From contig JAOALC010000002.1 of the NCBI GenBank assembly GCA_025153775.1, positions 62,001 through 126,000 on the forward strand: 64,000 nt of DNA. The letters are read 5' to 3'. Every line of letters starts with the position of its first letter. Position 1 is the stretch's first letter. The notes under the pieces were generated by a model. It saw only the letters and a program-made list of their open reading frames with translations, had not been told where the DNA came from and made no database searches. The stretch comes from SAR92 clade bacterium H231. Its GTDB lineage: Bacteria > Pseudomonadota > Gammaproteobacteria > Pseudomonadales > Porticoccaceae. Position numbers and translations under genes: made by a program. Shown in pieces: positions 49,690 to 62,138 of the stretch.

Positions 49690-50580
49690 ATGTACAGAAT
49701 TGGACTATTTCTTCTCACCAATATCGCAATTATTGTGGTGGCCAGTATTTCACTGCGCCTGCTGGGTGTCGAAAGCATTTTGGCTAACAATGGGGTTGAC
49801 CTGGATCTGTCTTCGCTGCTGGTTTTCTGTGCTGTGTTTGGTTTTGCCGGGGCCTTTATGTCTCTGTTGCTATCCAAGTTTATGGCCAAGCGCTTTACTG
49901 GTATCAGACTGGTCTCCAAGCCTCAGACTGAGCAGGAGCGCTGGCTGCTACAGACTGTTACCACCCTATCGAAAAAAGCCGGTATTGGCATGCCCGAGGT
50001 AGGTATTTTCCCGGCCCAGCAATCCAATGCCTTTGCCACCGGCTGGAACAGAAACAATGCGCTGGTTGGAGTGAGTCAGGGACTACTGGACCGCTTCACT
50101 GAAGATGAGGCTCGCGCTGTGCTGGCCCATGAGATAGGCCATGTAGCTAATGGCGACATGATTACATTGGCCCTGATACAGGGAGTGGTAAATACCTTCG
50201 TTATGTTTGCAGCCCGGGTGATTGGCTTCTTTGTCGATCGCGTGATCCTAAAAAATAACCGCGGTTTGGGTCTGGGCTACTGGATAACCACCATAGTCGC
50301 AGAGATTATTCTGGCCATTGCAGCTTCAACCATTGTTATGTGGTTCTCCCGTCAGCGCGAATTCCGAGCCGATGCCGCTGGCGCCCAGCTGGCTGGACGT
50401 GCCGCCATGGTGGGTGCACTGGAAAAACTGCGCGCTGAAACCCAGTCTCATGTTGAAAACCAGATGCCAGATACCATGACAGCCTTTGGTATTTCCAGCG
50501 GCTGGAAGCGCAAGCCCAGCAGACTATTTATGACTCACCCCCCACTGGAAGAGCGTATTCAGGCACTTAAAAATGGATAA
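49690..50580 (+). CDS. htpX: Membrane protease HtpX
   Basis: A 296-residue M48 zinc metalloprotease of the inner membrane that degrades misfolded membrane proteins together with FtsH. Two N-terminal helices (about 5-25 and 40-60), active site HEIGH (147-151), two further helices (about 160-185 and 198-220) and the third zinc ligand in [10 protein letters not shown] (about 223). AGGA 7 nt before the ATG. Usually Cpx- or heat-controlled; no such site is evident here. Overlaps the Rieske gene by 8 bp. Confidence 0.96.
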
Positions 50581-50983
50581 GGGGACCCTGCTAGAGCAGG
50601 AAATAGCACTCTGCCAACTCGACGATCTGCAAGAGATGCAGACCATTGAGCTGAGTATTGAAGAGCGCAAACTATTTGCCATACGCCGCGACAATCAACT
50701 GTACGCCTACTGGAACAGCTGCCCTCACCTAGGCATACCTCTCAACTGGATGCCAGATAAGTTTCTCGATCTGGATGGCTCACTGATTCAATGCTCGTCC
50801 CATGGTGCCCTGTTTCAGGTGGATAGTGGCGAATGTATTGCAGGCCCCTGCGCCGGGGACCATTTAATGCAGGTGGAGCTGCGTGTTGAAGACGGAAGTT
50901 ACTATGTTGCCGCCAATCAACCTATGCCAGCGCCACCTATTAATCTCAGAGCTCAGGCCCTGGCAGATCTTGAAGACAGCTGA
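50573..50983 (+). CDS. Small Rieske [2Fe-2S] protein
   Basis: A 136-residue single Rieske domain with ligands in CPHLG and CSSHGALFQ (about 50-84); it keeps the CxH...CxxH spacing but has the looser second box of dioxygenase-type or NirD-like Rieske ferredoxins, not of bc1 subunits. No membrane helix or signal, so a cytoplasmic electron carrier or a domain partner is likely. It overlaps htpX by 8 bp and is convergent with sfsA, with a 38-bp overlap of coding sequence. Confidence 0.83.
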
Positions 50984-51674
50984 TCGGCTGGTCTAGCACT
51001 ATTTGATCAGCACCAATGCTGGCCCGCCAGGCAATCACCTCTACTCCCGCGGCAACCGCCTCAGACAGAGTTGCAGCGTAACCAGGGTCAATCTCGGCCG
51101 CCACTTCCATGCGCTGAACCCCGGTTAACTGGACACAGAAAAACAGCACTGCCCTGTGGCCAGCTGCAACCATAGCCATCAGTTCACGCAGATGTTTGGT
51201 GCCGCGGCTGGTGACCGCATCGGGAAAAGTCGCCAGACCATCCCCCATATCCAGGGTGACATTTTTTACCTCGACATAGCATTGGCCCAGGCTTCGGTCC
51301 TCTAGCAACAGATCAATGCGACTCTTCTCTTCACCGTAGCGAACCTCAGTGCGAATCTGGCTATAACCCTGCAGCTCAGGGACCAGGTCGGCTTCGATCA
51401 CTTCGCGCACCAGATAATTGGGCCTGGAGGTATTTACACCAGCTAGGTTGCCCTGGCTACTGGTCACTATCTCCAGAGTGCCGGGCAATTTGCGCTTGGG
51501 ATTATCAGACAGGGAATACCAGCAGGGAGACCCTTCGACCAGGCAGTTTTTCATGCTGCCGGTATTGGGGCAGTGGAGGGTAAGAAGCTCACCGGACGGG
51601 GTGCGCACATCGGCGAAGAAACGCTTGTAGCGCTTTTCAAAGGTAGCTGGAAATAAGGGCGGAGCAATTTTCAT
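50946..51674 (-). CDS. sfsA: Sugar fermentation stimulation protein SfsA
   Basis: A 242-residue member of the SfsA family, an OB-fold plus nuclease-like fold; reported as a DNA-binding regulator of sugar genes in E. coli, though the true activity is debated. Conserved blocks: RYKRFFADV, HCPNTGSMK (about 34-42), SRIDLLLED (about 118) and CYVEVKNVTL (about 131-140), the E-x-K being nuclease-like. Convergent with the Rieske gene and upstream-divergent from dksA; the sfsA-dksA neighbourhood also occurs in E. coli. Confidence 0.95.
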   Translation of the reverse strand: MKIAPPLFPATFEKRYKRFFADVRTPSGELLTLHCPNTGSMKNCLVEGSPCWYSLSDNPKRKLPGTLEIVTSSQGNLAGVNTSRPNYLVREVIEADLVPELQGYSQIRTEVRYGEEKSRIDLLLEDRSLGQCYVEVKNVTLDMGDGLATFPDAVTSRGTKHLRELMAMVAAGHRAVLFFCVQLTGVQRMEVAAEIDPGYAATLSEAVAAGVEVIAWRASIGADQIVLDQPISCLQDLPGPEL

Positions 51675-51874
51675 AGACGGACATCACAAGCAGGTCAATT
51701 AATGGCGCTAATGTAGGCGCAGCTAGGGCTTTTTTGCAACCATGGTCTAAGATTAACCAATAGAAAATGGCAATATTCGCAATCAATAGGAAAATTTACC
51801 TTGATAAATGCGTATAAAATCTCTATAAACGCGGGTTCTGTTTTTTAGGCCCATATCAACAGCGGATCTTATGC

Positions 51875-52345
51875 ATGGCAACAGTAAAAACAAAACCTGC
51901 AGCTAAATCAAAAAGCGATGCAGGCTCAGCAACTCTTCATGGTCTCAAGCCCTACAAAGAGACTAAAAAAGAGGAATATATGAATGAAAATCAGCGCGAG
52001 CACTTCAAGCTGATTCTCAAAGCGTGGCGTCGCGAGTTAATGGAAGAAGTTGACCGCACAGTGACCCATATGAAAGACGAAGCAGCAAACTTCCCCGATC
52101 CGGCCGACCGCGCCACTCAGGAAGAAGAGTTTAGTCTGGAGCTGCGCACCCGCGACCGCGAGCGCAAATTAATCAAAAAGATTGATAAAACTCTGGTGCG
52201 TGTCGAAGAGGATGACTACGGTTTCTGTGACCAATGTGGTGTTGAAATCGGTATTCGCCGACTCGAAGCTCGACCCACAGCAGATCTGTGCGTCGACTGC
52301 AAAACTCTCGATGAAATCAAGGAAAAGCAAATCACCGGAGGCTAG
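51875..52345 (+). CDS. dksA: RNA polymerase-binding transcription factor DksA
   Basis: A 156-residue DksA that works with ppGpp on rRNA, amino-acid and stress promoters. The coiled-coil tip acidic pair is in the DPADRATQEEE region (about 74-84), and the four-Cys zinc finger is CDQCGVEIG...CVDCK (about 119-143). The typical DksA segment GLKPYKETKKEEYMNENQREHFK is seen after a Lys/Ala-rich N-terminal extension of about 20 residues. Upstream of gluQ, as in most gammaproteobacteria. Confidence 0.97.
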   Translation: MATVKTKPAAKSKSDAGSATLHGLKPYKETKKEEYMNENQREHFKLILKAWRRELMEEVDRTVTHMKDEAANFPDPADRATQEEEFSLELRTRDRERKLIKKIDKTLVRVEEDDYGFCDQCGVEIGIRRLEARPTADLCVDCKTLDEIKEKQITGG

Positions 52346-52361
52346 TTAGCTGCCCGGTCAT

Positions 52362-52389
52362 CAGCAGCTCAGAGCCTTCTGAGCTGCTG
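52362..52389 (+). terminator. Perfect 11-bp hairpin between dksA and gluQ
   Basis: CAGCAGCTCAG-AGCCTT-CTGAGCTGCTG, 16 bp after the dksA stop and 12 bp before the gluQ start. No U-run follows (TAATCC), so it is more likely a processing or attenuation hairpin than a complete terminator. It may explain different dksA and gluQ levels. Confidence 0.55.
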
Positions 52390-52401
52390 TAATCCTTCCT
52401 A

Positions 52402-53292
52402 ATGTCAGCCTTACCCAGCATAGCTCGCTTCGCACCCTCGCCTACGGGCCCACTGCACTTTGGCTCCCTGGTCAGTGCCCTAGCCAGCTTTCTGGATGCC
52501 CGCCAGCGCAACGGCCAGTGGCTGGTGCGTATTGAAGATCTGGACCCCCCCAGAGAAGTGCCCGGCGCCAGCCATCAGATTCTGAAACAGCTTGAAAGTC
52601 ACGGGCTGCGTTGGGATGGCACTGTGCTATACCAGAGCAGCAGACTTGAGGCCTATGCGGCGGCCCTGGAATCTCTAATAGAATCTGGGTTGATCTATCA
52701 ATGCAGGTGCAACCGCCAGCGACTACAGAGCCTTGGCGGCATCTATGACGGTCACTGCTCTCAGCTTCAATTGCCCCACCAGGACTGCGCGGCAAGACTA
52801 AGGGTCAACAGTGCCCCTATCAGTTTTAATGATCAGATTGTTGGTCAGTACTCCCAGAATCTGCAGGCAGAGGTGGGTGACTTTGTGGTGCGCCGCCGGG
52901 ATACTCTCTTCTCCTACCAGCTGGCCGTGGTGGTGGATGACCAATATCAGGCTATCAGCCATATTATGCGTGGCGCAGATCTGCTTGATTCGACACCCAG
53001 GCAGATCTATCTGCAGCAGTGCCTGAATTTTAAAACACCAGAATATGCTCATCTGCCCCTGGCTCTCAATGCCGAGGGTCAGAAACTCAGCAAGCAAAAT
53101 CTCGCTATGGGTCTTTTGGAAGGTCAGGAATCACAGCATCTGTGGGCCGCGCTGCACTGGCTGAGACAGTCACCTCCAGAGCCATTGCAGCGGCAATCTG
53201 TGGCGGAAATACTAGACTGGGCAACAGCGCACTGGTCGGTGCAAACAGTAGCTGAGAGCTTGCAAAATAGCCCGGCCCCAGAGGGCTATTAG
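52402..53292 (+). CDS. gluQ: Glutamyl-Q tRNA(Asp) synthetase
   Basis: A 296-residue shortened glutamyl-tRNA synthetase that attaches glutamate to queuosine in tRNA-Asp. The HIGH-type motif is HFGS (in GPLHFGSLVSA), the zinc region is CRCNRQRL...YDGHC (about 99-116) and the KMSKS-type motif is KLSKQN (about 228-233). No anticodon-binding domain, as expected. The hairpin in the 56-bp gap and the close dksA spacing suggest cotranscription. Confidence 0.95.
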   Translation: MSALPSIARFAPSPTGPLHFGSLVSALASFLDARQRNGQWLVRIEDLDPPREVPGASHQILKQLESHGLRWDGTVLYQSSRLEAYAAALESLIESGLIYQCRCNRQRLQSLGGIYDGHCSQLQLPHQDCAARLRVNSAPISFNDQIVGQYSQNLQAEVGDFVVRRRDTLFSYQLAVVVDDQYQAISHIMRGADLLDSTPRQIYLQQCLNFKTPEYAHLPLALNAEGQKLSKQNLAMGLLEGQESQHLWAALHWLRQSPPEPLQRQSVAEILDWATAHWSVQTVAESLQNSPAPEGY

Positions 53293-53418
53293 ATGGGCTG
53301 CACTGATCTGAATCCAGAGACCTGGGAACCAGGTTTGCTTTGCTGGTCTGGCAGGCATACCATCTGGGTTATCTGTCAACCAAGTAGCTTTAAAATAATC
53401 GGCCGCGCCCTCTAGCCC

Positions 53419-53595
53419 ATGCTTAATTATCGATTTGTTGCAACTCTGCTCCTGCTCTGCATAGTGGTTTTTCCGCTGGCCATTCAATGGGCAGTGGAGC
53501 CCGATGGCAACTGGTTTAGGCCCTATGTGGTCTGGGCCATGATAGTGTTCGCCGCCTATATTGCCCACCGCCATAGGGTCCGGGATGAATCTTGA
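53419..53595 (+). CDS. cbrX: CbrX-like small membrane protein overlapping cbrA
   Basis: A 58-residue protein, easily missed because of its size. Two hydrophobic segments (about 5-24 and 36-49) are separated by a short polar loop with EPDGNWFRP, and the C-terminus is basic. It ends in TGA at 53593-53595, overlapping the cbrA ATG (53585) by 11 bp, so coupled translation is likely. Pseudomonas has a small overlapping gene, cbrX, in this same place. It also recalls the small YhdT-type partners of SLC5 transporters, which fits the SLC5-like sensor domain of CbrA. Confidence 0.75.
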   Translation: MLNYRFVATLLLLCIVVFPLAIQWAVEPDGNWFRPYVVWAMIVFAAYIAHRHRVRDES

Positions 53596-56488
53596 AATAA
53601 TCAATCCTGATGCTGTGCTGGCCACTCTGGCCATGCTGGCGCTGGGCTGCCTGGCAGCCAAATGGATGTCCCAGCGCACAGGGTCCAACAGCAAGGATAT
53701 TATGCTGGCTCTGGGCCTGTTCTCTGGCACCGGGGTGCTGCTGGCTATGGGCTCGGTTGAGATGGCGGGGCGCTATGGCAATAGCGTTATTCTGGCCCTG
53801 ATTGCTTTTAGTCTGGTGTTTGTCCTGTCGCCATTAATTTTTCTACCTATTCGTCGACTCAGTGGGATTATTCGCTTTGCTACGCCGGTGGATTTCCTGA
53901 CCTTCAGATACCGCAAAAAATCTGTTGCTGTTATAGCCAGCATCTCACTGATACTGGCGGTAATCCCCCTGATTCTGGCCCAGTACGTGGCCATTGAGGC
54001 CATCTTTAATAGTCTGTTTGGCAATAGGAGTGGAGTATTCGGTCTGCTGGCGACCACAGTGGTTATTCTGCTGATCAACCTGCGCTCTATTGGCCTGGGA
54101 GTCGCTAATCATCTGCCCTGGGTTATGGCCGCAGCCGGGCTCTTACTGCTGCCAGCCATGGGCTTTTCTGCCTGGGCAGCTTTAACATCAGCCTTTGGTG
54201 GCCTAGCAGAAATGAATAATTGGGTGGTGGATAGCGGGCAGCGCTTTATTATCCAGCGCATGGATTTTTCCTACAGCCTGTTTATTGTTTTTATGGCGGC
54301 AGGCTTCGCTTATCCGTTTAACTTCAGTCTACTGATCTCCAATGATATCTCAGACCAACAGGCAGGAATGACCTCCTGGGCCTATCCTCTATTGGTATTG
54401 CTGGCCAGTATTCCGCTATTCCCTCTACTGTGGAGCGGTATCTCGGTGCAGTCGGTGTCGCCCTTTCAGGAGTATCTGTTTGCCCTGCCCTCCCTCGCGG
54501 GGCAACCGCTAATTGCCGGCCTGGCCAGTGCCAGCATTCTTTTGCTCAGTGTTGCATTGATCTGCAGCCTGAGTCTGATTACAGCGAGAATTGTACTCAA
54601 TAGCTTTTTGCTGCCAGGTAAAGATTTGCAGCGCCAAGCCAATCTGGATCAGTGGATTAAAAACCGCCGCATGCTGGTAGCCAGTGGTCTAATCCTGTTC
54701 TGTACCTGCCTTAGCCTGGTCAGCAAACACCACAGTATTACAGACTATTATCTTGCCGCATTTGCTGGCCTGGCTCAGCTCACACCGGGAATGCTGGCAG
54801 TTATCTATCTGCCCAGAGTGGGTCGCCGCGGCTTTATTGGCGGGCTGGTCGCCGGACTATCCCTGTGGTTGATGACCATTTTGCTGCCTCTGTTAATTGG
54901 TGACTGGAGCTGGCAGCTGCCTCTGGGTGACAAAGTTATCCACTTTGGCATGCAGAATTGGGATATCTGGGCCCTGGAAGCTCTGCTGCTGAATATCACA
55001 GTCTGCCTGTTGTTTTCCCTGCGTGGCTCTATGGACAGGGAACAGCAGGCCTTTGCCACCCTGTGTATGGCCGACAATGTCTATATACCAGCGCGTGTCG
55101 AAATTGCGCAAAAATCTGTGTCTGAACTCACTGGCAGTCTGCGCCTGTCTCTGGGTGATGCCGCAGACGCCGAGGTAGCTCGAGCCCTAGATACTCTGGG
55201 CTATGATGCCGATGAAGTGCGCCCGGCGGCTCTGCGTCAGCTGCGCGACAGTATCAATGCCTCATTAAATATGGGTTTTGGTGTACTGGCGGCCAATCGT
55301 ATTATGGAGCATTCACTGCCCCTGATTGTGCCTGCAGCTGATGAGCCAGACGATATTCAGCTGATTGAATCTGTACTGGCTATCCAGGGAGACCGGCTGA
55401 CAGGTATTGCCAGCGAACTCAATAAACTGCGGGTGCACCACCGCCAGGTACTAGACAACCTGCCCATAGGGGTGGTGTCTCTGGATCAAGGCGGGGAAAT
55501 TGTGCGCTGGAACAGCACATTGTCCAGCTATACAGGTATCAGCCAGAGCATAGCTTCGGGCAGGCTGATAGGGGATTTACCCGAGCCCTGGAGCTCTGCT
55601 ATTTCAGATTTTATCCGCAGCGGCAAAAATAGCCTGGATGATTTGCGGCTTGAAATACAGGGCCAGGTGCGCTGGTACAGCCTACAAAAATCCGAACAGC
55701 CAGGCTCTGGCTCTGAATCTAATAGAGACAACAATGGTGATATTGTTTTACTAATCGAAGATCACACCGAGCAGGTCAATCTGATCCAGAGCTCAATCGA
55801 CAATGAAAGACTGGCCTCTGTGGGCCGTCTGGCTGCCGGAGTGGCCCATGAAATTGGCAATCCAGTTACTGGCATTGCCTGTATTGCTCAAAATCTGGAG
55901 CATGAGACTGAGGCGAGTCAGGTGGCGGAGTCCGCCCAGCAGATACTGTCTCAGACTCAGCGAATCAACCGTATTGTTCAGTCTCTGATCAACTTTTCCC
56001 GGGGAGGCAATGCACTGACCTCAGCCCAAAAAGATATCAGTATCAGCAACGCAGCAGAAGAAGCTATTCAATTGCTGACCCTTAGCGACGAGCAGCAAAA
56101 TCTGCGCTTTATCTGCGCTATTGATCCGGGCCTGAATATTCGTGGCGATTACCACCAGCTGCTGCAGATGTTTCTCAATCTACTGAGTAATGCCCGAGAT
56201 GCATCACCAAATGGCGGTGTTGTTACTATAGGGGCCCAAGCTGAGGGACAGGAAATTATGGTCACTATCAGCGATCAGGGTGAGGGAATCAAAGAAGATC
56301 TGCGCAGCAGATTGTTCGAGCCATTTGTCACCACCAAAGACCCAGGCAAAGGAACAGGGCTAGGCCTGTGGATTGTCTTTAACCTGGCAAAAAGCCTGGG
56401 AGCTGAGATTGAACTAACCAGCCCGGCCATAAACACTGATCGCGGCACTACAGTAACCATTAATTTCCCCGTATCATCTGCCCCATGA
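53585..56488 (+). CDS. cbrA: CbrA-type sensor histidine kinase with SLC5-like transporter domain
   Basis: A 967-residue kinase. Residues 1 to about 490 form about 13 helices of sodium:solute symporter (SLC5) type. A linker follows (about 510-620), then a PAS domain (VLDNLPIGVVSLDQGGEIVRW, about 622-715), the HisKA box with phospho-acceptor H755 (GVAHEIGNP) and the HATPase domain with N box NLLSNARDAS, G1 DQGEGI, F box FEPFVTTK and GTGLGLW. This is the CbrA plan; in Pseudomonas CbrAB balances carbon and nitrogen use and can take up histidine. The ATG at 53585 is preferred over an in-frame TTG at 53561; AGGG lies 6 nt upstream. It overlaps cbrB by 4 bp. Confidence 0.92.
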   Translation: MNLEIINPDAVLATLAMLALGCLAAKWMSQRTGSNSKDIMLALGLFSGTGVLLAMGSVEMAGRYGNSVILALIAFSLVFVLSPLIFLPIRRLSGIIRFATPVDFLTFRYRKKSVAVIASISLILAVIPLILAQYVAIEAIFNSLFGNRSGVFGLLATTVVILLINLRSIGLGVANHLPWVMAAAGLLLLPAMGFSAWAALTSAFGGLAEMNNWVVDSGQRFIIQRMDFSYSLFIVFMAAGFAYPFNFSLLISNDISDQQAGMTSWAYPLLVLLASIPLFPLLWSGISVQSVSPFQEYLFALPSLAGQPLIAGLASASILLLSVALICSLSLITARIVLNSFLLPGKDLQRQANLDQWIKNRRMLVASGLILFCTCLSLVSKHHSITDYYLAAFAGLAQLTPGMLAVIYLPRVGRRGFIGGLVAGLSLWLMTILLPLLIGDWSWQLPLGDKVIHFGMQNWDIWALEALLLNITVCLLFSLRGSMDREQQAFATLCMADNVYIPARVEIAQKSVSELTGSLRLSLGDAADAEVARALDTLGYDADEVRPAALRQLRDSINASLNMGFGVLAANRIMEHSLPLIVPAADEPDDIQLIESVLAIQGDRLTGIASELNKLRVHHRQVLDNLPIGVVSLDQGGEIVRWNSTLSSYTGISQSIASGRLIGDLPEPWSSAISDFIRSGKNSLDDLRLEIQGQVRWYSLQKSEQPGSGSESNRDNNGDIVLLIEDHTEQVNLIQSSIDNERLASVGRLAAGVAHEIGNPVTGIACIAQNLEHETEASQVAESAQQILSQTQRINRIVQSLINFSRGGNALTSAQKDISISNAAEEAIQLLTLSDEQQNLRFICAIDPGLNIRGDYHQLLQMFLNLLSNARDASPNGGVVTIGAQAEGQEIMVTISDQGEGIKEDLRSRLFEPFVTTKDPGKGTGLGLWIVFNLAKSLGAEIELTSPAINTDRGTTVTINFPVSSAP

Positions 56489-57750
56489 ACGAAAATGCCA
56501 AACAGATACTGATTGTCGAAGACGAAGAAATTATTCGCTTATCTCTGCGCAAGCTGTTGGAGCGCCATGATTATGCTGTGTCTGAAGCTATCAGCGTAAA
56601 AGCCGCGCAAGAGGCCTACAACCTCAATGAGTTTAATCTGATTATCAGCGATCTGCGCCTGCCGGGCAGCTCCGGCACCGAGCTTATTCAGCCTGCTGGC
56701 TCTGTGCCAGTGCTGGTTATGACCAGCTATGCCAGTCTGCGCTCTGCTGTTGAGACCATGCGTCAGGGAGCCGCCGACTATATCTCCAAACCTTTTGATC
56801 ACGAAGAAATGCTCGCTGCGGTGCGACGCCTGATCGGTGAATCCGATCAACAACAGCATGCGGTTAAGTCCCAGTGTCCAGTAGTGCTGGGTACCAGCCC
56901 CAAAATTCTGCATATATTGCGCACAGTGCATAAAGCTGCCCCCACCTCTGTACCCGTTTTAATTCAGGGCGAGAGCGGTACTGGGCGTCGCACTATCGCA
57001 GAGATTATCCACGCCAACAGTGCCCTTGCCGATCAGTGCTTCGTGACCATTAATTGCACTTCAGTAAAAGAGGCTCAGCTCCATAAACAGCTGGAGGTCA
57101 GCTCTGAAGGTACATTATTTTTAAATAATATCTGTGAACTGCCGCTGGCACTGCAGCCCTTGGTGCTCAAGGCCATAGAGCAGAAAACCTTTCGCTGCAT
57201 CGCCTCGACCGAGCAAGATTTGCAGGCCCTGTGCGAGTCAGATCGTTTTCGCAAAGATCTTTTTTACAGCCTCAATGTGGTTAGGCTGCAGGTCCCTAGC
57301 CTGAGGGCGCGGGCCGAGGATATTCCCTGTTTAACCAAATACTTTATAGACCAGTACTCAAGCGAGCTAGGCTTTCAAATTCACCTTACGGAAGATGCAC
57401 TTCAGGCACTGAACAGCTACAGCTGGCCGGGCAATGTGCGCGAGCTGCAAAATATGCTCTACCAAGCGGCCATTTTGTCCGAGCCCGAAGAACCTATCAG
57501 CGCTGAGATACTGGGCTTATATGATAAGGTTAATGCCAGTGATAACGCTGAAATATACAATAGCTCCCCGCAGCCAAATTCTGCTAATGATCAACCTGCC
57601 GGTCTCTCGCTGGAAGACTATTTCACAAGCTTCGTATTGGAAAATCAGGAGAATATGAGTGAGACAGCACTGGCACAAAAGCTGGGTATAAGCCGTAAAT
57701 CCCTGTGGGAAAGACGCAATAAGCTGGGTATAAGCCGCAAAAAAGCCTAA
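56485..57750 (+). CDS. cbrB: CbrB-like response regulator with a degenerate AAA+ domain
   Basis: A 421-residue NtrC-type regulator: receiver domain (5-120) with phosphoacceptor D56 (ISDLRLPG), AAA+ domain (about 132-350) and a Fis-type HTH (LAQKLGISRKSLWERRNKLG, about 395-414) like CbrB. The AAA+ part is damaged by family rules. Walker A is GESGTGRRT (R168 instead of Lys), Walker B ends LNN (N214, N215 instead of Asp-Glu), and about 27 residues including the sigma-54-contacting GAFTGA loop are absent between INCTS and EGTLFL. The FYSLNV segment has Ser for the usual Arg. SWPGNVRELQN is kept. It should therefore bind DNA and respond to CbrA, but not drive sigma-54 melting. Confidence 0.9.
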   Translation: MNENAKQILIVEDEEIIRLSLRKLLERHDYAVSEAISVKAAQEAYNLNEFNLIISDLRLPGSSGTELIQPAGSVPVLVMTSYASLRSAVETMRQGAADYISKPFDHEEMLAAVRRLIGESDQQQHAVKSQCPVVLGTSPKILHILRTVHKAAPTSVPVLIQGESGTGRRTIAEIIHANSALADQCFVTINCTSVKEAQLHKQLEVSSEGTLFLNNICELPLALQPLVLKAIEQKTFRCIASTEQDLQALCESDRFRKDLFYSLNVVRLQVPSLRARAEDIPCLTKYFIDQYSSELGFQIHLTEDALQALNSYSWPGNVRELQNMLYQAAILSEPEEPISAEILGLYDKVNASDNAEIYNSSPQPNSANDQPAGLSLEDYFTSFVLENQENMSETALAQKLGISRKSLWERRNKLGISRKKA

Positions 57751-57806
57751 CCTTTATGCCAATTTAATCCCAGTGAGTTTTCAATTTAGCCTGTAGAACC
57801 GGGGTT

Positions 57807-57822
57807 CGGCCGTAAAATTGCA
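57807..57822 (+). promoter_or_regulatory. Possible sigma-54-type -24/-12 element (vestigial?)
   Basis: GG at 57808-57809 and GC at 57820-57821 are exactly 10 bp apart, with a perfect TTGCA at the -12 side; the -24 side (CGGCC) is weak. CrcZ in Pseudomonas has a CbrB/sigma-54 promoter here. Because this CbrB lacks GAFTGA the element may be a relic or chance. Confidence 0.3.
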
Positions 57823-57862
57823 AAAATAAATCGAATTTAGGGCCAAATGTTTAAAATTTCTC

Positions 57863-57890
57863 TTGCGGAACAACTTTTTCTGATTAGAAT
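57863..57890 (+). promoter_or_regulatory. Sigma-70-type promoter of the candidate sRNA
   Basis: TTGCGG (57863-57868), a 16-bp spacer and TAGAAT (57885-57890, one mismatch to consensus). Transcription should start near 57897. Confidence 0.5.
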
Positions 57891-57896
57891 AAGGTC

Positions 57897-58029
57897 GTAC
57901 CAAGACTTGATCTTGAGTAATAAAAACAATAAAAAATAATAAGAACTGGATGGATTGCGAAAGTGTTCAAAGAGCCTAGGCTCCAGAACCATTGAGGGGG
58001 GTTGTCGAGAGGCATCCCTTTTTTATTTT
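57897..58029 (+). ncRNA. Candidate small RNA in the CrcZ position (cbrB-pcnB gap)
   Basis: The 406-bp gap between cbrB and pcnB has no reading frame of note. It contains a promoter, a small 5' hairpin (CAAGA/TCTTG, 57901-57915), an A-rich single-stranded stretch of about 28 nt at 57918-57945 made of AAN triplets (such as AAAAACAATAA, the type bound by the distal face of Hfq), a palindrome GAGCC-TA-GGCTC (57972-57983) and a terminator-like hairpin with a U-run. CrcZ/CrcY of Pseudomonas, which soak up Hfq/Crc through such motifs, lie at this place. The predicted RNA of about 130 nt is shorter than CrcZ. The remaining 127 bp before pcnB shows nothing I can name. Confidence 0.42.
57996..58029 (+). 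terminator. Terminator-like hairpin of the candidate sRNA
   Basis: GGG-T-TGT (57999-58005) pairs with GCA-T-CCC (58012-58018) with one internal mismatch; then TTTTTTATTTT. Confidence 0.5.
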
Positions 58030-58156
58030 CCGCAATAAACATAGTCTTTTTATTCGAATCCCCTATTATTTATTCTGCTTAGTCTATGCAATGCTCCCGT
58101 ATTAGCTTTTCCTCTGTTAAACTCTCGGTTCCTTCCAGTCCACCGGCAAGCTGTTC

Positions 58157-59509
58157 ATGCTGAAACGCATAAGTAATTTCTTTGCAAGAGGCCAACATCA
58201 ACCAGAGTTTGGTGAAGCCGTCGTTATTCCATCGGGGCAACATGCTCTGTCGCCTCAAATGATTAGTCGCGATGCTCGCAAAGTTGTGCAAATTTTGCAG
58301 GAGCACGGCTTTGAGGCCTATGTGGTGGGAGGTTCGGTACGGGACCTGCTGCTTGGACTTAAGCCCAAAGATTTTGATGTGGCCACCAATGCCAAGCCCG
58401 CCGAGATCAAACCCCTATTCCGGCGTGCGCGCATTATTGGTCGTCGCTTCCAGATCGTGCATGTTCAGTTTAGTCGCGAACCGATTGAAGTCACCACCTT
58501 CCGCTCCAATGCGACCCCGGGGCAGGACAAAAATACCGGTGGCAACCGCCGCCAACAGACCGATACCGGCATGCTGACCAGAGACAATGTATTCGGCTCA
58601 ATCAGTGACGATGCCAGCCGCCGCGATCTGACCATCAATGCCCTTTACTATGACCCCAGTGACAACAGTATTCATGACTTTGCCGGTGGGCTCGAAGATA
58701 TAGATAGCCGCACCATTCGCATTATGGGTGATCCGGCTACTCGCTTTAGAGAAGACCCGGTGCGCCTGTTGCGGGTTGTGCGATTTGCAGCAAAACTGGG
58801 CTTCACTATTGAGCGCAGTACAGAAAAACCCATTCGCAAGCTGGCAGCAGATCTGTCCCATGTGTCGCCGCCCAGACTGTTTGATGAGACCCTCAAGCTA
58901 TTTATGAGTGGGCAGGGTTTAGCCACATTCTGGCTGCTGCACGAGTACGGCCTGTTTGACCAGATGGTCCCGCAGCTCAGCAACCTGCTTAAAGAGCGCG
59001 AAAGTCAGTCCAGCAGCCTGATTGAACAGGCCTTTACCAATACCGACCTGCGTATTCGCGCTAACAAGCGCGTGACTCCAGCCTTTATCTATGCCGCAAT
59101 GCTTTGGCCCTCGGTTCAACATCTGGCCAAACAGTATCAGGGACAGGGCAACTCACCCGCCTATGCCCTCAACAAGGCTGCAGGCGAAGTGATTTCACGC
59201 CAGGTTTCCATTACCGCCATACCGCGGCGCTTTACCATGCCCATGCGTGAGATTTGGGATTTGCAGCTGCTGCTGCCCCGAAGAGGTGGTCAGCGCGCCA
59301 AACGTCTATCTGAACATCCCCGCTTTCGCGCAGCCTACGACTTTGTGCTGCTGCGAGAACAGGCGGGGGAAAATCTAGAGGGCCTTGGCGACTGGTGGAC
59401 CAGATATCAGGAAGCCAGCGAAGAAGAGCAGCAACAGATGGCCAATGCACAGAATCAAGACGGCAAAAAACGCCGCCGTCGCAAACCCAGAAAGCCTAAG
59501 ACAGATTAA
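58157..59509 (+). CDS. pcnB: Poly(A) polymerase I
   Basis: A 450-residue class II nucleotidyltransferase that adds 3' poly(A) tails to RNA and so speeds decay. The active-site loop is VGGSVRDLLLG (57-67) with metal ligands D72 and D74 (DFDVAT); the flexible-loop and RRDLTINAL blocks follow (about 151-160), and the protein ends in a strongly basic tail (KKRRRRKPRKPKTD) as in E. coli PcnB. The folK start overlaps its stop (TAATG). Confidence 0.96.
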   Translation: MLKRISNFFARGQHQPEFGEAVVIPSGQHALSPQMISRDARKVVQILQEHGFEAYVVGGSVRDLLLGLKPKDFDVATNAKPAEIKPLFRRARIIGRRFQIVHVQFSREPIEVTTFRSNATPGQDKNTGGNRRQQTDTGMLTRDNVFGSISDDASRRDLTINALYYDPSDNSIHDFAGGLEDIDSRTIRIMGDPATRFREDPVRLLRVVRFAAKLGFTIERSTEKPIRKLAADLSHVSPPRLFDETLKLFMSGQGLATFWLLHEYGLFDQMVPQLSNLLKERESQSSSLIEQAFTNTDLRIRANKRVTPAFIYAAMLWPSVQHLAKQYQGQGNSPAYALNKAAGEVISRQVSITAIPRRFTMPMREIWDLQLLLPRRGGQRAKRLSEHPRFRAAYDFVLLREQAGENLEGLGDWWTRYQEASEEEQQQMANAQNQDGKKRRRRKPRKPKTD

Positions 59510-60009
59510 TGGCACTGGCTTATATAGGCCTGGGCAGCAATCTGAGCGACACAGTGGCTGGCCAGGAACTGGACTCCCGGGCTCAGTTAAACCTGGCCAT
59601 CGACAGCCTGTCAGCACATCCCCACATACTGGTCAGCAAACGGTCCAGCTTTTATCAAACTCCAGCCATAGGTCCCGGGGAACAGCCAAATTATATTAAT
59701 GCCGTCGCCCAGTTGGACAGCCAGCTAGCTCCATTGGACCTTCTAGATCTACTGCAATCTATTGAGAACCAACAGGGCCGTGTACGCACTGTTCGCTGGG
59801 GTGCCAGAACATTGGATTTGGATATTCTGCTCTATGATCAGCTAATAGAAAACAGCGAGCGCCTGACGGTTCCGCACCCAAGAATGCATGAGCGAGGTTT
59901 TGTCCTAGCCCCGCTCAGCGAGATAGCTCCAGATCTGTGTCTGCCAAATGGGGAAAATATACAGCAGCTATTGGCAAACTGCTCCATGCAAGGTATCGTC
60001 AAATTATAG
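59509..60009 (+). CDS. folK: 2-amino-4-hydroxy-6-hydroxymethyldihydropteridine pyrophosphokinase
   Basis: A 166-residue HPPK that moves pyrophosphate from ATP to the pterin in folate synthesis. Signatures: YIGLGSNLSD (4-13), VRWGARTLDLDILLYD (with metal-binding D-L-D, about 96-111) and VPHPRMHERGFVLAPL (about 122-137). Overlaps pcnB by one base. Confidence 0.97.
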   Translation: MALAYIGLGSNLSDTVAGQELDSRAQLNLAIDSLSAHPHILVSKRSSFYQTPAIGPGEQPNYINAVAQLDSQLAPLDLLDLLQSIENQQGRVRTVRWGARTLDLDILLYDQLIENSERLTVPHPRMHERGFVLAPLSEIAPDLCLPNGENIQQLLANCSMQGIVKL

Positions 60010-60047
60010 GCCCAAGTGCCCTCGCCATTTAGCTACTGGAGACCCAT

Positions 60048-60743
60048 GTGCAACAGGCTACCATCAACGACCTGGATATTGACTTAACAGCTGCCTCCAT
60101 TCCCAGATATATTGCTATAGAAGGCCCAATTGGCATTGGTAAGACCACTCTCGCCAAGCGTCTAGCAGAATCCTTTAACTATGAAACCCTGCTCGAAGAC
60201 GCCGAAGAAAACCCTTTTTTAGAGCGCTTCTATCAGGATCGCCGCAGCAATGCACTGCCTACCCAGCTGTACTTTTTATTTCAGCGAATGCGCAAACTGC
60301 AGGACCTGCGACAGGGGGATATGTTTCAGCCGGTGCGGGTATCAGATTTTTTAATTGAGAAAGATCCGCTGTTTGCTCGCGTCACCCTTGATGAAAATGA
60401 ATACCATCTCTACCAGACGGTGTACGACAAAATTATTGAAGACCTGCCCAAACCAGACTTGGTGATCTATCTACAGGCACCCACAGATACCCTCTACGAG
60501 CGCGTGCAGATGCGCGGCAATGCGATTGAACGGCCAATTGAACAGTCTTATCTACAGCAGCTAAATGATGCCTATACCCAGTTCTTTTATCATTACGATG
60601 ACAGACCACTGCTTATAGTAAACACAGAGGTTATCAATCTCGCCCAGGGCACTGTGGACTACCAGGATCTCGTGAAATACATATTGCAGATAAAGTCTGG
60701 TCGCCATTATTACAATCCTCACCCCATGCAATCAGCGAGCTAA
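60048..60743 (+). CDS. Deoxynucleoside kinase (dAdo/dCyd kinase family)
   Basis: A 231-residue P-loop kinase of the dCK/dGK family that salvages deoxynucleosides. P-loop GPIGIGKT (26-33), a VSDFLIEKDPLFA segment in place of the family ERS region (near residue 97), and the LID region RGNAIER (near 160). The start is GTG with GGAG 6 nt upstream; the overlapping ATG is out of frame. Found between folK and panB in many gammaproteobacteria. The exact base preference cannot be judged. Confidence 0.88.
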   Translation: MQQATINDLDIDLTAASIPRYIAIEGPIGIGKTTLAKRLAESFNYETLLEDAEENPFLERFYQDRRSNALPTQLYFLFQRMRKLQDLRQGDMFQPVRVSDFLIEKDPLFARVTLDENEYHLYQTVYDKIIEDLPKPDLVIYLQAPTDTLYERVQMRGNAIERPIEQSYLQQLNDAYTQFFYHYDDRPLLIVNTEVINLAQGTVDYQDLVKYILQIKSGRHYYNPHPMQSAS

Positions 60744-60825
60744 CAGGGTCAGACTGCGACTTGTTATCATAGCCGAAACCCATTAACGTACCTGTCCTGC
60801 GAACAGATTGAGGTCTGTGTCACCC

Positions 60826-61617
60826 ATGAAAACTACCACCATTAGCAATCTCAACGCCATGAAAGCCGCAGGCGATAAGTTTGCCGTTATCACTGCCTAC
60901 GATTACACCTTCTCTCGCCTGATAGAAACCGCAGGTATCGAAGTGACACTTGTGGGCGATTCTCTGGGTAATGTTATTCAGGGCCGCGACAGCACAATAC
61001 CCGTGACCATTGATGAAATGGCCTATCACACCCAGATCGTCAAGCGTGGCAATAGCCGCACATTGCTGATGACCGATATGCCCTTTATGACCTACGCCAC
61101 AGAAAATCAAGCCATGGATAACGCCGCAATTCTTATGCAGGCTGGCGCCCAGATGGTAAAGCTGGAAGGCGGTGAGTGGCTTGCAGAAACTGTCTATATG
61201 CTGACCGAGCGCGGTATTCCTGTCTGTGGCCATGTAGGTCTGACACCCCAGTCGGTGCACAAATTAGGCGGCTACAAAGTACAGGGCAAAGAGGAAGACG
61301 CAGCCCAACAGATGATTGATGAAGCAGTTATTCTGGAGGAGGCAGGGGCAGATTTAATTGTTGTGGAATGTGTGCCCTCTTCATTGGGCCGCGATCTGTC
61401 CCAGGCGCTAAGCATTCCGGTAATCGGTATAGGGGCAGGCCCAGATACAGATGCTCAGGTCCTGGTGCTGCAAGATATGCTCGGCATCTCTCAGCGCCTG
61501 CCAAAGTTTTCCAAAAACTTTCTCGAGGACAGTGGCAGCATTCAAGAGGCAATTATCGCCTATGGCAATGCGGTGCGCAGCGGCACTTTTCCAGCGCCAG
61601 AACACAGCTTTAAATAA
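60826..61617 (+). CDS. panB: Ketopantoate hydroxymethyltransferase
   Basis: A 263-residue TIM-barrel enzyme, first step of pantothenate synthesis. Seen: VITAYDYTFSRL (about 19-30), the metal-binding VGDSLGNVIQG (about 42-52), MPFMTYA and VKLEGGEW (about 111-118) and HVGLTPQSVHKLGGYKVQGK (about 136-155). The ATG at 60826 is chosen over an upstream TTG. panC normally follows; here gpx follows instead, so panC must be elsewhere or absent. Confidence 0.96.
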   Translation: MKTTTISNLNAMKAAGDKFAVITAYDYTFSRLIETAGIEVTLVGDSLGNVIQGRDSTIPVTIDEMAYHTQIVKRGNSRTLLMTDMPFMTYATENQAMDNAAILMQAGAQMVKLEGGEWLAETVYMLTERGIPVCGHVGLTPQSVHKLGGYKVQGKEEDAAQQMIDEAVILEEAGADLIVVECVPSSLGRDLSQALSIPVIGIGAGPDTDAQVLVLQDMLGISQRLPKFSKNFLEDSGSIQEAIIAYGNAVRSGTFPAPEHSFK

Positions 61618-61652
61618 CCAGACAGTAAATAATAACTAGAGTGATTTAAACC

Positions 61653-62138
61653 ATGTCCGAAGCCAGTTCAGTCTATGAGTTCAGCGTACCCACCAGCACA
61701 GGTGAGGAACAGTCGTTAAAAGCCTATGAGGGTAAGGTTATGCTGATTGTTAACACGGCCAGCAAATGCGGCTTTACTCCCCAGTACGAGGGACTGCAAA
61801 AACTGCACAACAGCTATGGGGACCTTGGTCTAGAAATCATTGCCATGCCCTGCAATCAATTCGGCGGCCAGGAACCCGGCAGCAATGCCGAAGTTCAGGA
61901 ATTCTGTCAGATGAACTACGGGCTCAGCTTTCCAGTGATGGGCAAAATACAGGTCAATGGCCCAGACAGACACCCCCTTTATAGCTACCTGATATCAAGA
62001 GCAGGCGGACTGTTCAATGACAATATCAAGTGGAACTTCACCAAGTTTTTAATCGACCGCCAGGGGCGGGTAGTAGATCGCTTTGCCACGATCACTAAAC
62101 CAGCTGATATTGCCAAATCTATAGAAAAGCTTCTCTAA
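61653..62138 (+). CDS. Glutathione peroxidase family protein (thioredoxin/glutathione-dependent)
   Basis: A 161-residue peroxidase of the GPx fold with peroxidatic cysteine C39 (NTASKCGFTPQY), the Gln of MPCNQFGGQEPG (near 74) and the Trp-Asn of KWNFTKFLID (near 129), giving the Cys-Gln-Trp-Asn site. Non-selenium type. It probably uses thioredoxin, as most bacterial members do. No signal peptide, hence cytoplasmic. Confidence 0.94.
   Translation: MSEASSVYEFSVPTSTGEEQSLKAYEGKVMLIVNTASKCGFTPQYEGLQKLHNSYGDLGLEIIAMPCNQFGGQEPGSNAEVQEFCQMNYGLSFPVMGKIQVNGPDRHPLYSYLISRAGGLFNDNIKWNFTKFLIDRQGRVVDRFATITKPADIAKSIEKLL

Follow-up and report, generated by a model that had tools for sequence, protein, structure and literature searches.

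The window analysed here is a stretch of 64,000 nucleotides from the SAR92 clade bacterium H231 (contig JAOALC010000002.1, positions 62,001-126,000 of the forward strand), and it encodes CbrA and CbrB homologues, the latter a regulator that no longer looks equipped to work with sigma-54. We consider it likely, from sequence comparisons, that CbrB in the SAR92-type clade is a working, sigma-54-independent and probably class-I-like regulator of sigma-70 promoters; the regulator looks alive, and its sigma-54 engine alone looks lost. Comparison of related sequences established the losses in the protein, their phylogeny, a change of promoter motif at a neighboring CrcZ-like RNA gene, and the co-occurrence of a DNA palindrome with CbrAB.

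The cbrB homologue (positions 56485-57750, forward strand, as are all window features given here) encodes a protein of 421 amino acids with a receiver domain, an AAA+ domain that lacks the sigma-54 contact loops, and a Fis-type helix-turn-helix (HTH). The gene adjoins one for a CbrA-type kinase, whose stop codon its ATG overlaps, and sits upstream of pcnB, as expected of a CbrB locus; Pfam matches assign the middle domain to the AAA+ fold. A sequence-only reading of this DNA had described an arginine in place of the Walker A lysine, two asparagines in place of the Walker B Asp-Glu, and an intact phospho-acceptor and HTH. All of these are present in the open reading frame: Arg168, in GESGTGRR, is encoded at 56986-56988, Asn214-Asn215, in TLFLNN, at 57124-57129, the phospho-acceptor Asp56 at 56650-56652, and the Fis-type HTH at 57604-57747, where 48 residues are identical to those of two relatives (loci L011 and L012, genomes G016 and G031). 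The same reading held that a single deletion of about 27 residues had removed the GAFTGA loop. The loop is indeed missing, but alignment with intact relatives and with the NtrC4 and NtrC1 structures resolves two gaps rather than one. About 19 residues including GAFTGA are missing at loop L1 (junction near residues 201/202, 57085-57090), and about 13 are missing at loop L2 (junction near residues 236/237, 57190-57195). This second deletion had been overlooked, as had the RNA and the lineages without an AAA+ domain that are described below.

The L1 and L2 loops and the arginine fingers have roles in sigma-54 activators. The second arginine-finger position is lost in the window CbrB, and of the features expected of an enhancer-binding protein it lacks GAFTGA (L1), L2, the Walker A lysine and the Walker B Asp-Glu. 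The absence of L1, L2 and the Walker B glutamate supports the earlier suggestion that this CbrB can hardly be a sigma-54 activator. An AlphaFold2 model of CbrB built from 35 sequences has a mean predicted local distance difference test score of 86 and a predicted template modeling score of 0.55, and most blocks of the AAA+ core score above 90. The closest solved folds are Brucella NtrX, NtrC1, LuxO, NtrC4 and VpsR (7v2b), and Foldseek placed the model on NtrC1 (4lzz) with a root-mean-square deviation of 2.2. In this model the degenerate AAA+ domain looks folded, a scaffold rather than debris.

By its named relatives, which are the best 80 of 580 confirmed loci, the window's genus groups with the SAR92 clade (HTCC2207, MOLA455 and BACL16) of the Porticoccaceae. 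Thirteen of the 80 are clade members (L060-L071 and L073) and none of these has GAFTGA; the motif is found in 66 of the 67 non-clade relatives, the exception being L129. When relatives were aligned, L1 was absent from 37 of 37 distinct AAA+-bearing CbrBs examined in the SAR92-type genus and its sister genus (g1 and g8). Since the loss is found in all 37 proteins, it is neither a chance effect nor damage confined to this strain among otherwise intact relatives, and that explanation is ruled out. We compared these 37 L1-less proteins with 73 distinct GAFTGA-bearing ones, the two classes being split by L1 itself and omitting proteins outside 380-520 amino acids (L111, L129 and L135) and the cut L047 and L049. 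L2 is gone fully in 36 of the L1-less proteins, the window protein included, and partly in one. The Walker B glutamate is present in 72/73 GAFTGA-bearing proteins versus 0/37 L1-less proteins, and the second arginine finger is arginine in 73/73 versus 4/37, so that it is lost in 33. Asp56 is present in 72/73 and in 37/37, respectively. In addition, nine genomes encode a CbrB of 182-191 amino acids that consists of receiver and HTH only (five in g1, three in g14 and one in g12).

The partners that these proteins would need were also sought. rpoN is present in the window genome and in 107 of 112 family genomes, including 70/70 near-complete ones (the five misses are all less than 80% complete), which rules out loss of RpoN as the cause of the change. 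Four further proteins encoded in the window genome each have a full-length sigma-54 activation domain, bearing GAFTGA or GSFTGA. CbrA was found in 54 of the 112 genomes. Its His-box pattern, HEIxNP, occurs at 58/58 loci beside L1-less CbrBs, in 10/10 rows with short CbrBs, and at 61/69 GAFTGA-bearing loci; this count is by locus, so that several genomes enter twice, and the ten short rows include L047 (G048), which is cut by a contig end. In genus g10 (L052, L054 and L147-L149), CbrB carries GAFTGA, the RNA has a sigma-54 motif, and CbrA was not found; this CbrB is an apparent orphan sigma-54 activator. A search of plasmids returned only thousands of distant activators and was uninformative.

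A tree of CbrA and the CbrB receiver and HTH (50 rows, 1137 columns) resolves relations among CbrAB, and it contains CbrAB rows only, without a non-CbrB outgroup; the HTH of five rows was taken as the last 55 residues, and G029 and G034 were not included. The L1-less rows and eight of the nine AAA+-less rows form one clade with a Shimodaira-Hasegawa-like approximate likelihood ratio of 100. On this tree L1 was lost once, at the base of three genera, and complete loss of the AAA+ domain occurred four times: three times inside the L1-less clade and once in g12, where the AAA+-less G096 is sister to the GAFTGA-bearing G094. Pairwise ratios of nonsynonymous to synonymous substitution rates (dN/dS) are 0.07-0.40 for the degenerate AAA+ domain and 0.02-0.16 for the intact one, and for L1-less and short pairs they are 0.04-0.14 in the receiver and 0-0.17 in the HTH, which has no amino acid changes in 5 of 14 L1-less pairs. 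These ranges leave out three pairs, and no ratio is given where dS was saturated. The degenerate CbrB is under purifying selection.

Between cbrB and pcnB, the place that crcZ occupies in Pseudomonas, the window carries a CrcZ-like small RNA gene (57897-58029) with a 5' hairpin, an A-rich stretch of repeated AANAAYAA (CA-type) motifs (57917-57946), a body hairpin and a terminator. A covariance model matches 57898-58027 with an E-value of 4.3e-20, the window being one of the model's own rows, and 12 of the 19 predicted pairs show two-sided compensatory change among 21 aligned sequences. Because single-sequence folding is unexceptional (z -0.37), support for the structure comes from covariation alone. 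The position, the CA motifs and the terminator are those of CrcZ, and a sigma-54 promoter is lacking; an Rfam scan of window positions 50000-62000 gave four sub-threshold matches and no CrcZ up to an E-value of 5. Searched genome-wide with filters that lose weak matches, the model was found in 75 of 112 genomes at an E-value of at most 0.01, including genomes where CbrA was not found. In G019 and G087 the RNA is flanked directly by gluQ (named by likeness to the window gene) and pcnB. Genus g11 (L216, L217, L219 and L221), where CbrA was not found, has two neighboring matches to the RNA model, and those of L217 lie between gluQ and pcnB.

All promoters and transcription starts given here are predictions. 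The window RNA is preceded by a predicted sigma-70-like promoter, TTGCGG-N16-TAGAAT (57863-57890), and the window's cbrB-pcnB intergenic region has no sigma-54 motif. We searched such regions for [TA]GGCA[CT]N7GC wherever pcnB lies within 1.6 kb downstream of cbrB, counting one of each identical intergenic sequence and dropping loci at contig ends or without pcnB (for example L012, L017, L047, L063, L129 and L158). The motif is present at 67/67 loci with a GAFTGA-bearing CbrB. At L1-less loci it is present at 1/35, misplaced inside the RNA, and correctly placed at 0/35 (eight of the 35 have no RNA); at AAA+-less loci it is present at 1/9, correctly placed (L140, from G096). The frequency by chance is 48 in 1600 shuffles. 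In 20 genomes where CbrA was not found, none of 24 regions upstream of the RNA contained the motif, the region in G108 being 28 bp long. At intergenic regions of at least 250 bp, we also looked for a TTGNNN-N16/17-TWNNNT pair lying 60-125 nt ahead of a fixed reference point in the RNA, and 29 of 36 distinct L1-less and AAA+-less loci have one.

A second line of evidence comes from a putative operator. The subsites of CbrB in P. putida are TGTTAC and GTAACA (PMC6296734), and these are the half-sites of a 17-bp palindrome, TGTTAC-N5-GTAACA, that occurs at one place each in 55 of the 112 Porticoccaceae genomes, mostly before a DUF3450 gene beside folA. In the window genome the exact palindrome lies outside the window at contig C2 518854-518870 (approximately 1501-1517 of L160), before an operon for DUF3450, two MotA/TolQ/ExbB proteins, ExbD, TonB and a TPR protein. 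The DUF3450 gene is present in 50 of the 54 genomes with CbrA, and the palindrome precedes it in 50/50 (42 exact, eight with 11 of 12 letters). Where DUF3450 is present and CbrA was not found, the exact palindrome occurs in 3 of 48 genomes (G044, G046 and G108). In G044, pcnB is 159 bp from a contig end, in G108 the contig starts 28 bp before the RNA, and in G046, which is 73% complete, pcnB was not found, so that in all three the assembly has probably merely failed to capture cbrAB. Of the other 45 CbrA-negative genomes, 44 were scored over approximately 1.1 kb and reach 8-10 of 12 letters; for G007 the search covered just the exact form, which it lacks. Scored over approximately 330 bp, 32 of these 44 genomes reach at most 9 of 12 letters; for 12 of the 32 no ribosome-site anchor was found and the scored stretch was set at a fixed position, while G070 and G083 have their anchor inside folA. 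By eye, several CbrA-negative genomes in g1, g2 and g14 have kept the TonB promoter and lost the palindrome. A Fisher test of the co-occurrence takes no account of relatedness among the rows, and its p value should be discounted accordingly; stronger support comes from the fact that several distinct genera and subgroups lack CbrAB. With one mismatch allowed, the palindrome occurs at 20 places in the window genome compared to 19 for a reversed control; given this lack of enrichment, a wide regulon cannot be read from the sequence and the exact form alone is informative.

The palindrome or a close variant is also found at the RNA. In part of the L1-less clade the RNA promoter is preceded by TGTTTC-N5-GTAACA, and in G029 and G034, which have CbrB without CbrA, by TGTTAC-N5-GTAACA; this is the sole exact palindrome in these two genomes, and the one at the TonB operon was not found. 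The CbrB receivers of G034 and G029 (L058 and L059), from genomes in which CbrA was not found, have Thr replaced by Ser and Lys by Gln. In the window, an inverted repeat (GAACCGGGGTTC, 57796-57807) precedes the predicted start of the RNA by approximately 95 bp, at the position that the CbrB-type palindrome takes in relatives.

Positions of the palindrome centre were measured relative to the start predicted from the best-scoring -35/-10 pair. Of 53 TonB promoters (the first 48 of which include three from genomes in which CbrA was not found), 45 have the centre at -89 to -92 (40 of the first 48 and all of the five scored later), three in g12 at -81/-82 and two in g8 at -100/-101; the last three have it at -75 (twice) and -96 (once), with a second-best position of -90 each. 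Among 13 distinct RNA loci (21 rows), the centre is at -88/-89 in seven, at -92 in two, at -79 in one and at -100 in one; the remaining two have it at -56 and -46, with second-best positions of -89 and -99. This geometry would suit a class-I-like contact with sigma-70 polymerase, as judged from predicted promoters. The same geometry is also seen before the TonB operon in genomes with a GAFTGA-bearing CbrB, such as G005, G069, G094 and G095, which suggests that the sigma-54-independent mode predates the decay of the AAA+ domain.

These observations can be joined in the following mechanism. CbrA, whose His box is conserved, most likely still phosphorylates Asp56. CbrB would bind DNA by its unchanged HTH, probably as a dimer on the palindrome TGTTAC-N5-GTAACA (TGTTACGTTAGGTAACA), and would act on sigma-70 RNA polymerase from approximately 90 bp upstream of the start without ATP hydrolysis. 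The ancestral CbrB may have been dual, with sigma-54 activation of a CrcZ-type RNA requiring the AAA+ domain, and with sigma-70 control of the DUF3450-ExbB-ExbD-TonB operon through the palindrome not requiring it. Once the RNA gene had gained a sigma-70 promoter, the AAA+ domain would have been free to decay, presumably in that order; both loops, L1 and L2, would have gone in this way together with Walker B and an arginine finger, as would the entire domain in several lineages. We place about even confidence in this fuller history, in which CbrB was ancestrally a dual-polymerase regulator and the marine Porticoccaceae dropped its sigma-54 limb, rebuilt the crcZ promoter for sigma-70, which in some lineages gained a CbrB palindrome near -90, and let the AAA+ domain erode until it was lost at least three times, as it was once in another genus. 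The sequence-only reading had supposed that the CbrAB system had switched to repression or to sigma-70 promoters by direct contact, and the change of the RNA promoter and the palindrome at the TonB operon both argue for the move to sigma-70.

Several observations weigh against CbrB as a sigma-70 regulator of this kind, or limit its reach. The Walker A lysine, found in 73/73 GAFTGA-bearing proteins, is kept by 31 of the 37 L1-less ones, and only six have arginine as in the window. L129, the CbrB of a Pseudomonadales metagenome-assembled genome outside the clade, has an altered GAFTGA loop with intact Walker motifs, so that change in L1 is not confined to the SAR92-type clade; no pcnB was found behind its cbrB, which keeps it out of the promoter count. 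G096 has lost the AAA+ domain and kept a sigma-54 motif at its RNA, which indicates that CbrB may part with its engine before the promoter changes, whereas the other loci show the coupled end state; the loss in this genome is possibly recent. No TTG-N16/17 pair was found in the expected position at 7 of the 36 RNA loci (L034, L035, L038, L039, L044, L051 and L140). The RNA was not detected in nine genomes that keep CbrAB with a cbrB-pcnB spacing of 89-166 bp, the HTCC2207 type and its kin (G012, G013, G028, G033, G035, G036, G043, G051 and G052). The palindrome is absent from the window's own RNA promoter, from those of the AAA+-less forms and from those of several L1-less groups. Direct control of the RNA by CbrB would therefore hold in at most part of the clade, and the site at the TonB operon is the one candidate operator found in this strain. 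Exact palindromes away from DUF3450 occur in eight genomes (G053, G065, G073, G083, G097, G105, G106 and G110), five of them without CbrA, so that the sequence alone is no proof of CbrB. Seven chosen positions of the palindrome centre share a face of the helix (R 0.82, p about 0.005 by simulation), and this test was post hoc, left out the odd positions (-46, -56, -75 and -96), and used rows that share ancestry. Finally, the subsites of P. putida CbrB were reported to be non-palindromic, and the protein not to dimerise in vitro (PMC8871633).

The sign of regulation in the reading that we prefer is one that we infer, and CbrB might instead mainly repress or anti-repress sigma-70 promoters at the palindrome, which we regard as unlikely but worth weighing. 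Activators and repressors have typical operator positions, and the palindrome, mostly near -90 and also at -81 and -100, lies upstream of those usual for steric repression. The -10 element of the TonB operon is weak (TACAAA or TAAAAA in the window's genus), which fits an activated promoter. Precedent for repression exists: Caulobacter NtrC, another protein without GAFTGA, acts at sigma-70 promoters and represses some of its targets (PMC12421884 and PMC10274813), and three CbrB-repressed targets of P. putida were validated by reverse-transcription PCR (PMC6296734).

It is rather improbable that the palindrome at the TonB operon belongs to another regulator, its co-occurrence with CbrAB reflecting shared ancestry or joint loss in streamlined genomes. 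The relatedness of the rows lends this idea some weight, and so do the clustering of the CbrA-negative genomes in g2, g5, g6, g10, g11 and parts of g1 and g14 and the exact copies elsewhere in eight genomes. Genus g10, moreover, has a GAFTGA-bearing CbrB without CbrA and no palindrome before DUF3450, so that, if the site is CbrB's, it goes with the kinase and not with CbrB alone. What speaks for CbrB is that the half-sites equal those of P. putida CbrB, that the palindrome or a close variant stands at the RNA promoter beside cbrB, with the sole exact copy there in G029 and G034, and that, by eye, several CbrA-negative genomes in g1, g2 and g14 keep the TonB promoter without it.

We think it very improbable that the degenerate AAA+ domain still has a role at sigma-54 promoters, whether as a scaffold that binds nucleotide or as a member of rings shared with an intact activator. 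Retention of the Walker A lysine in most L1-less proteins, purifying selection on the domain and the four other activators of the window genome would be compatible with such a role, but the L1-less proteins have lost both contact loops and the Walker B glutamate, and most of them an arginine finger, the RNA of L1-less loci has no correctly placed sigma-54 motif, and the domain was repeatedly lost outright. Decay of cbrB as a pseudogene, suggested by the lost catalytic motifs and by the complete absence of CbrAB in some relatives, is rejected, since the frames are open without internal stops among the L1-less matches listed, receiver and HTH are strongly conserved, and dN/dS is below 0.41 in every L1-less comparison that gave a value.

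Two neighboring genes complete the locus. The cbrA homologue (53561-56488, start codon uncertain) encodes a long N-terminal region followed by PAS, HisKA and HATPase domains, and pcnB, the conserved downstream neighbor, lies at 58157-59509. In HTCC2207 and MOLA455 (L069 and L070), cbrB and pcnB are 89 bp apart and CbrAB is kept without the RNA.

Sigma-54 and sigma-70 open DNA in different ways, and how a promoter can pass from one to the other along with its activator is an unsettled matter in regulatory evolution. Intact, loop-less, motif-less and domain-less CbrBs stand on one tree, most with their promoter state beside them, which makes the order of events testable. The known range of CbrAB and of a CrcZ-like RNA now takes in ocean bacteria, and two named strains, HTCC2207 and MOLA455, have a loop-less CbrB. 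If the TonB energising operon is indeed a direct target, as it may be, carbon sensing would be linked to outer-membrane uptake. One review (PMC8871633) calls CbrAB unique to Pseudomonadaceae, and we found CbrAB in several other Pseudomonadales families as well. In the literature that we searched, we found no paper on SAR92 with CbrB, and no report of the CbrB case, of a combined loss of both loops and Walker B, of repeated AAA+ loss, of a parallel promoter change at a CrcZ-like RNA or of the TonB-operon palindrome.

Among the closest known systems is Pseudomonas CbrB, an NtrC-family sigma-54 activator of crcZ and crcY, to which the window CbrB is orthologous by its neighbors; the two share the cbrA-cbrB-[RNA]-pcnB order, the receiver, the HTH and the half-sites. 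The window CbrB differs in that it has neither L1 nor L2 and has lost Walker B and an arginine finger, and its candidate operator is a compact palindrome, whereas Pseudomonas has spaced subsites; the promoters here are sigma-70-like. The RNA resembles CrcZ in its place between cbrB and pcnB, its repeated AANAAYAA motifs and its terminator, but the clade RNA is approximately 130 nt long, has a sigma-70-like promoter and is not matched by CrcZ in Rfam. NtrC-family proteins without GAFTGA at sigma-70 promoters are already known from Rhodobacter capsulatus NtrC and Caulobacter NtrC (PMC10274813) and from VpsR of Vibrio cholerae, an enhancer-binding-protein fold without GAFTGA (structure 7v2b). Caulobacter NtrC lost eight L1 residues and needs ATP binding and hydrolysis, according to PMC10274813, whereas the window CbrB has lost both loops and Walker B, and some of its relatives the entire AAA+ domain. 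VpsR, unlike CbrB, binds cyclic di-GMP and is not a partner of CbrA. The short CbrBs of 182-191 amino acids share the receiver and Fis-type HTH of RegA/PrrA/ActR-type regulators, but these short forms arose from CbrB itself at a single locus, next to CbrA. If the history proposed here is true, it would trace a natural route by which an NtrC-type activator becomes a minimal regulator of the RegA type, with several of its stages preserved at one orthologous locus.

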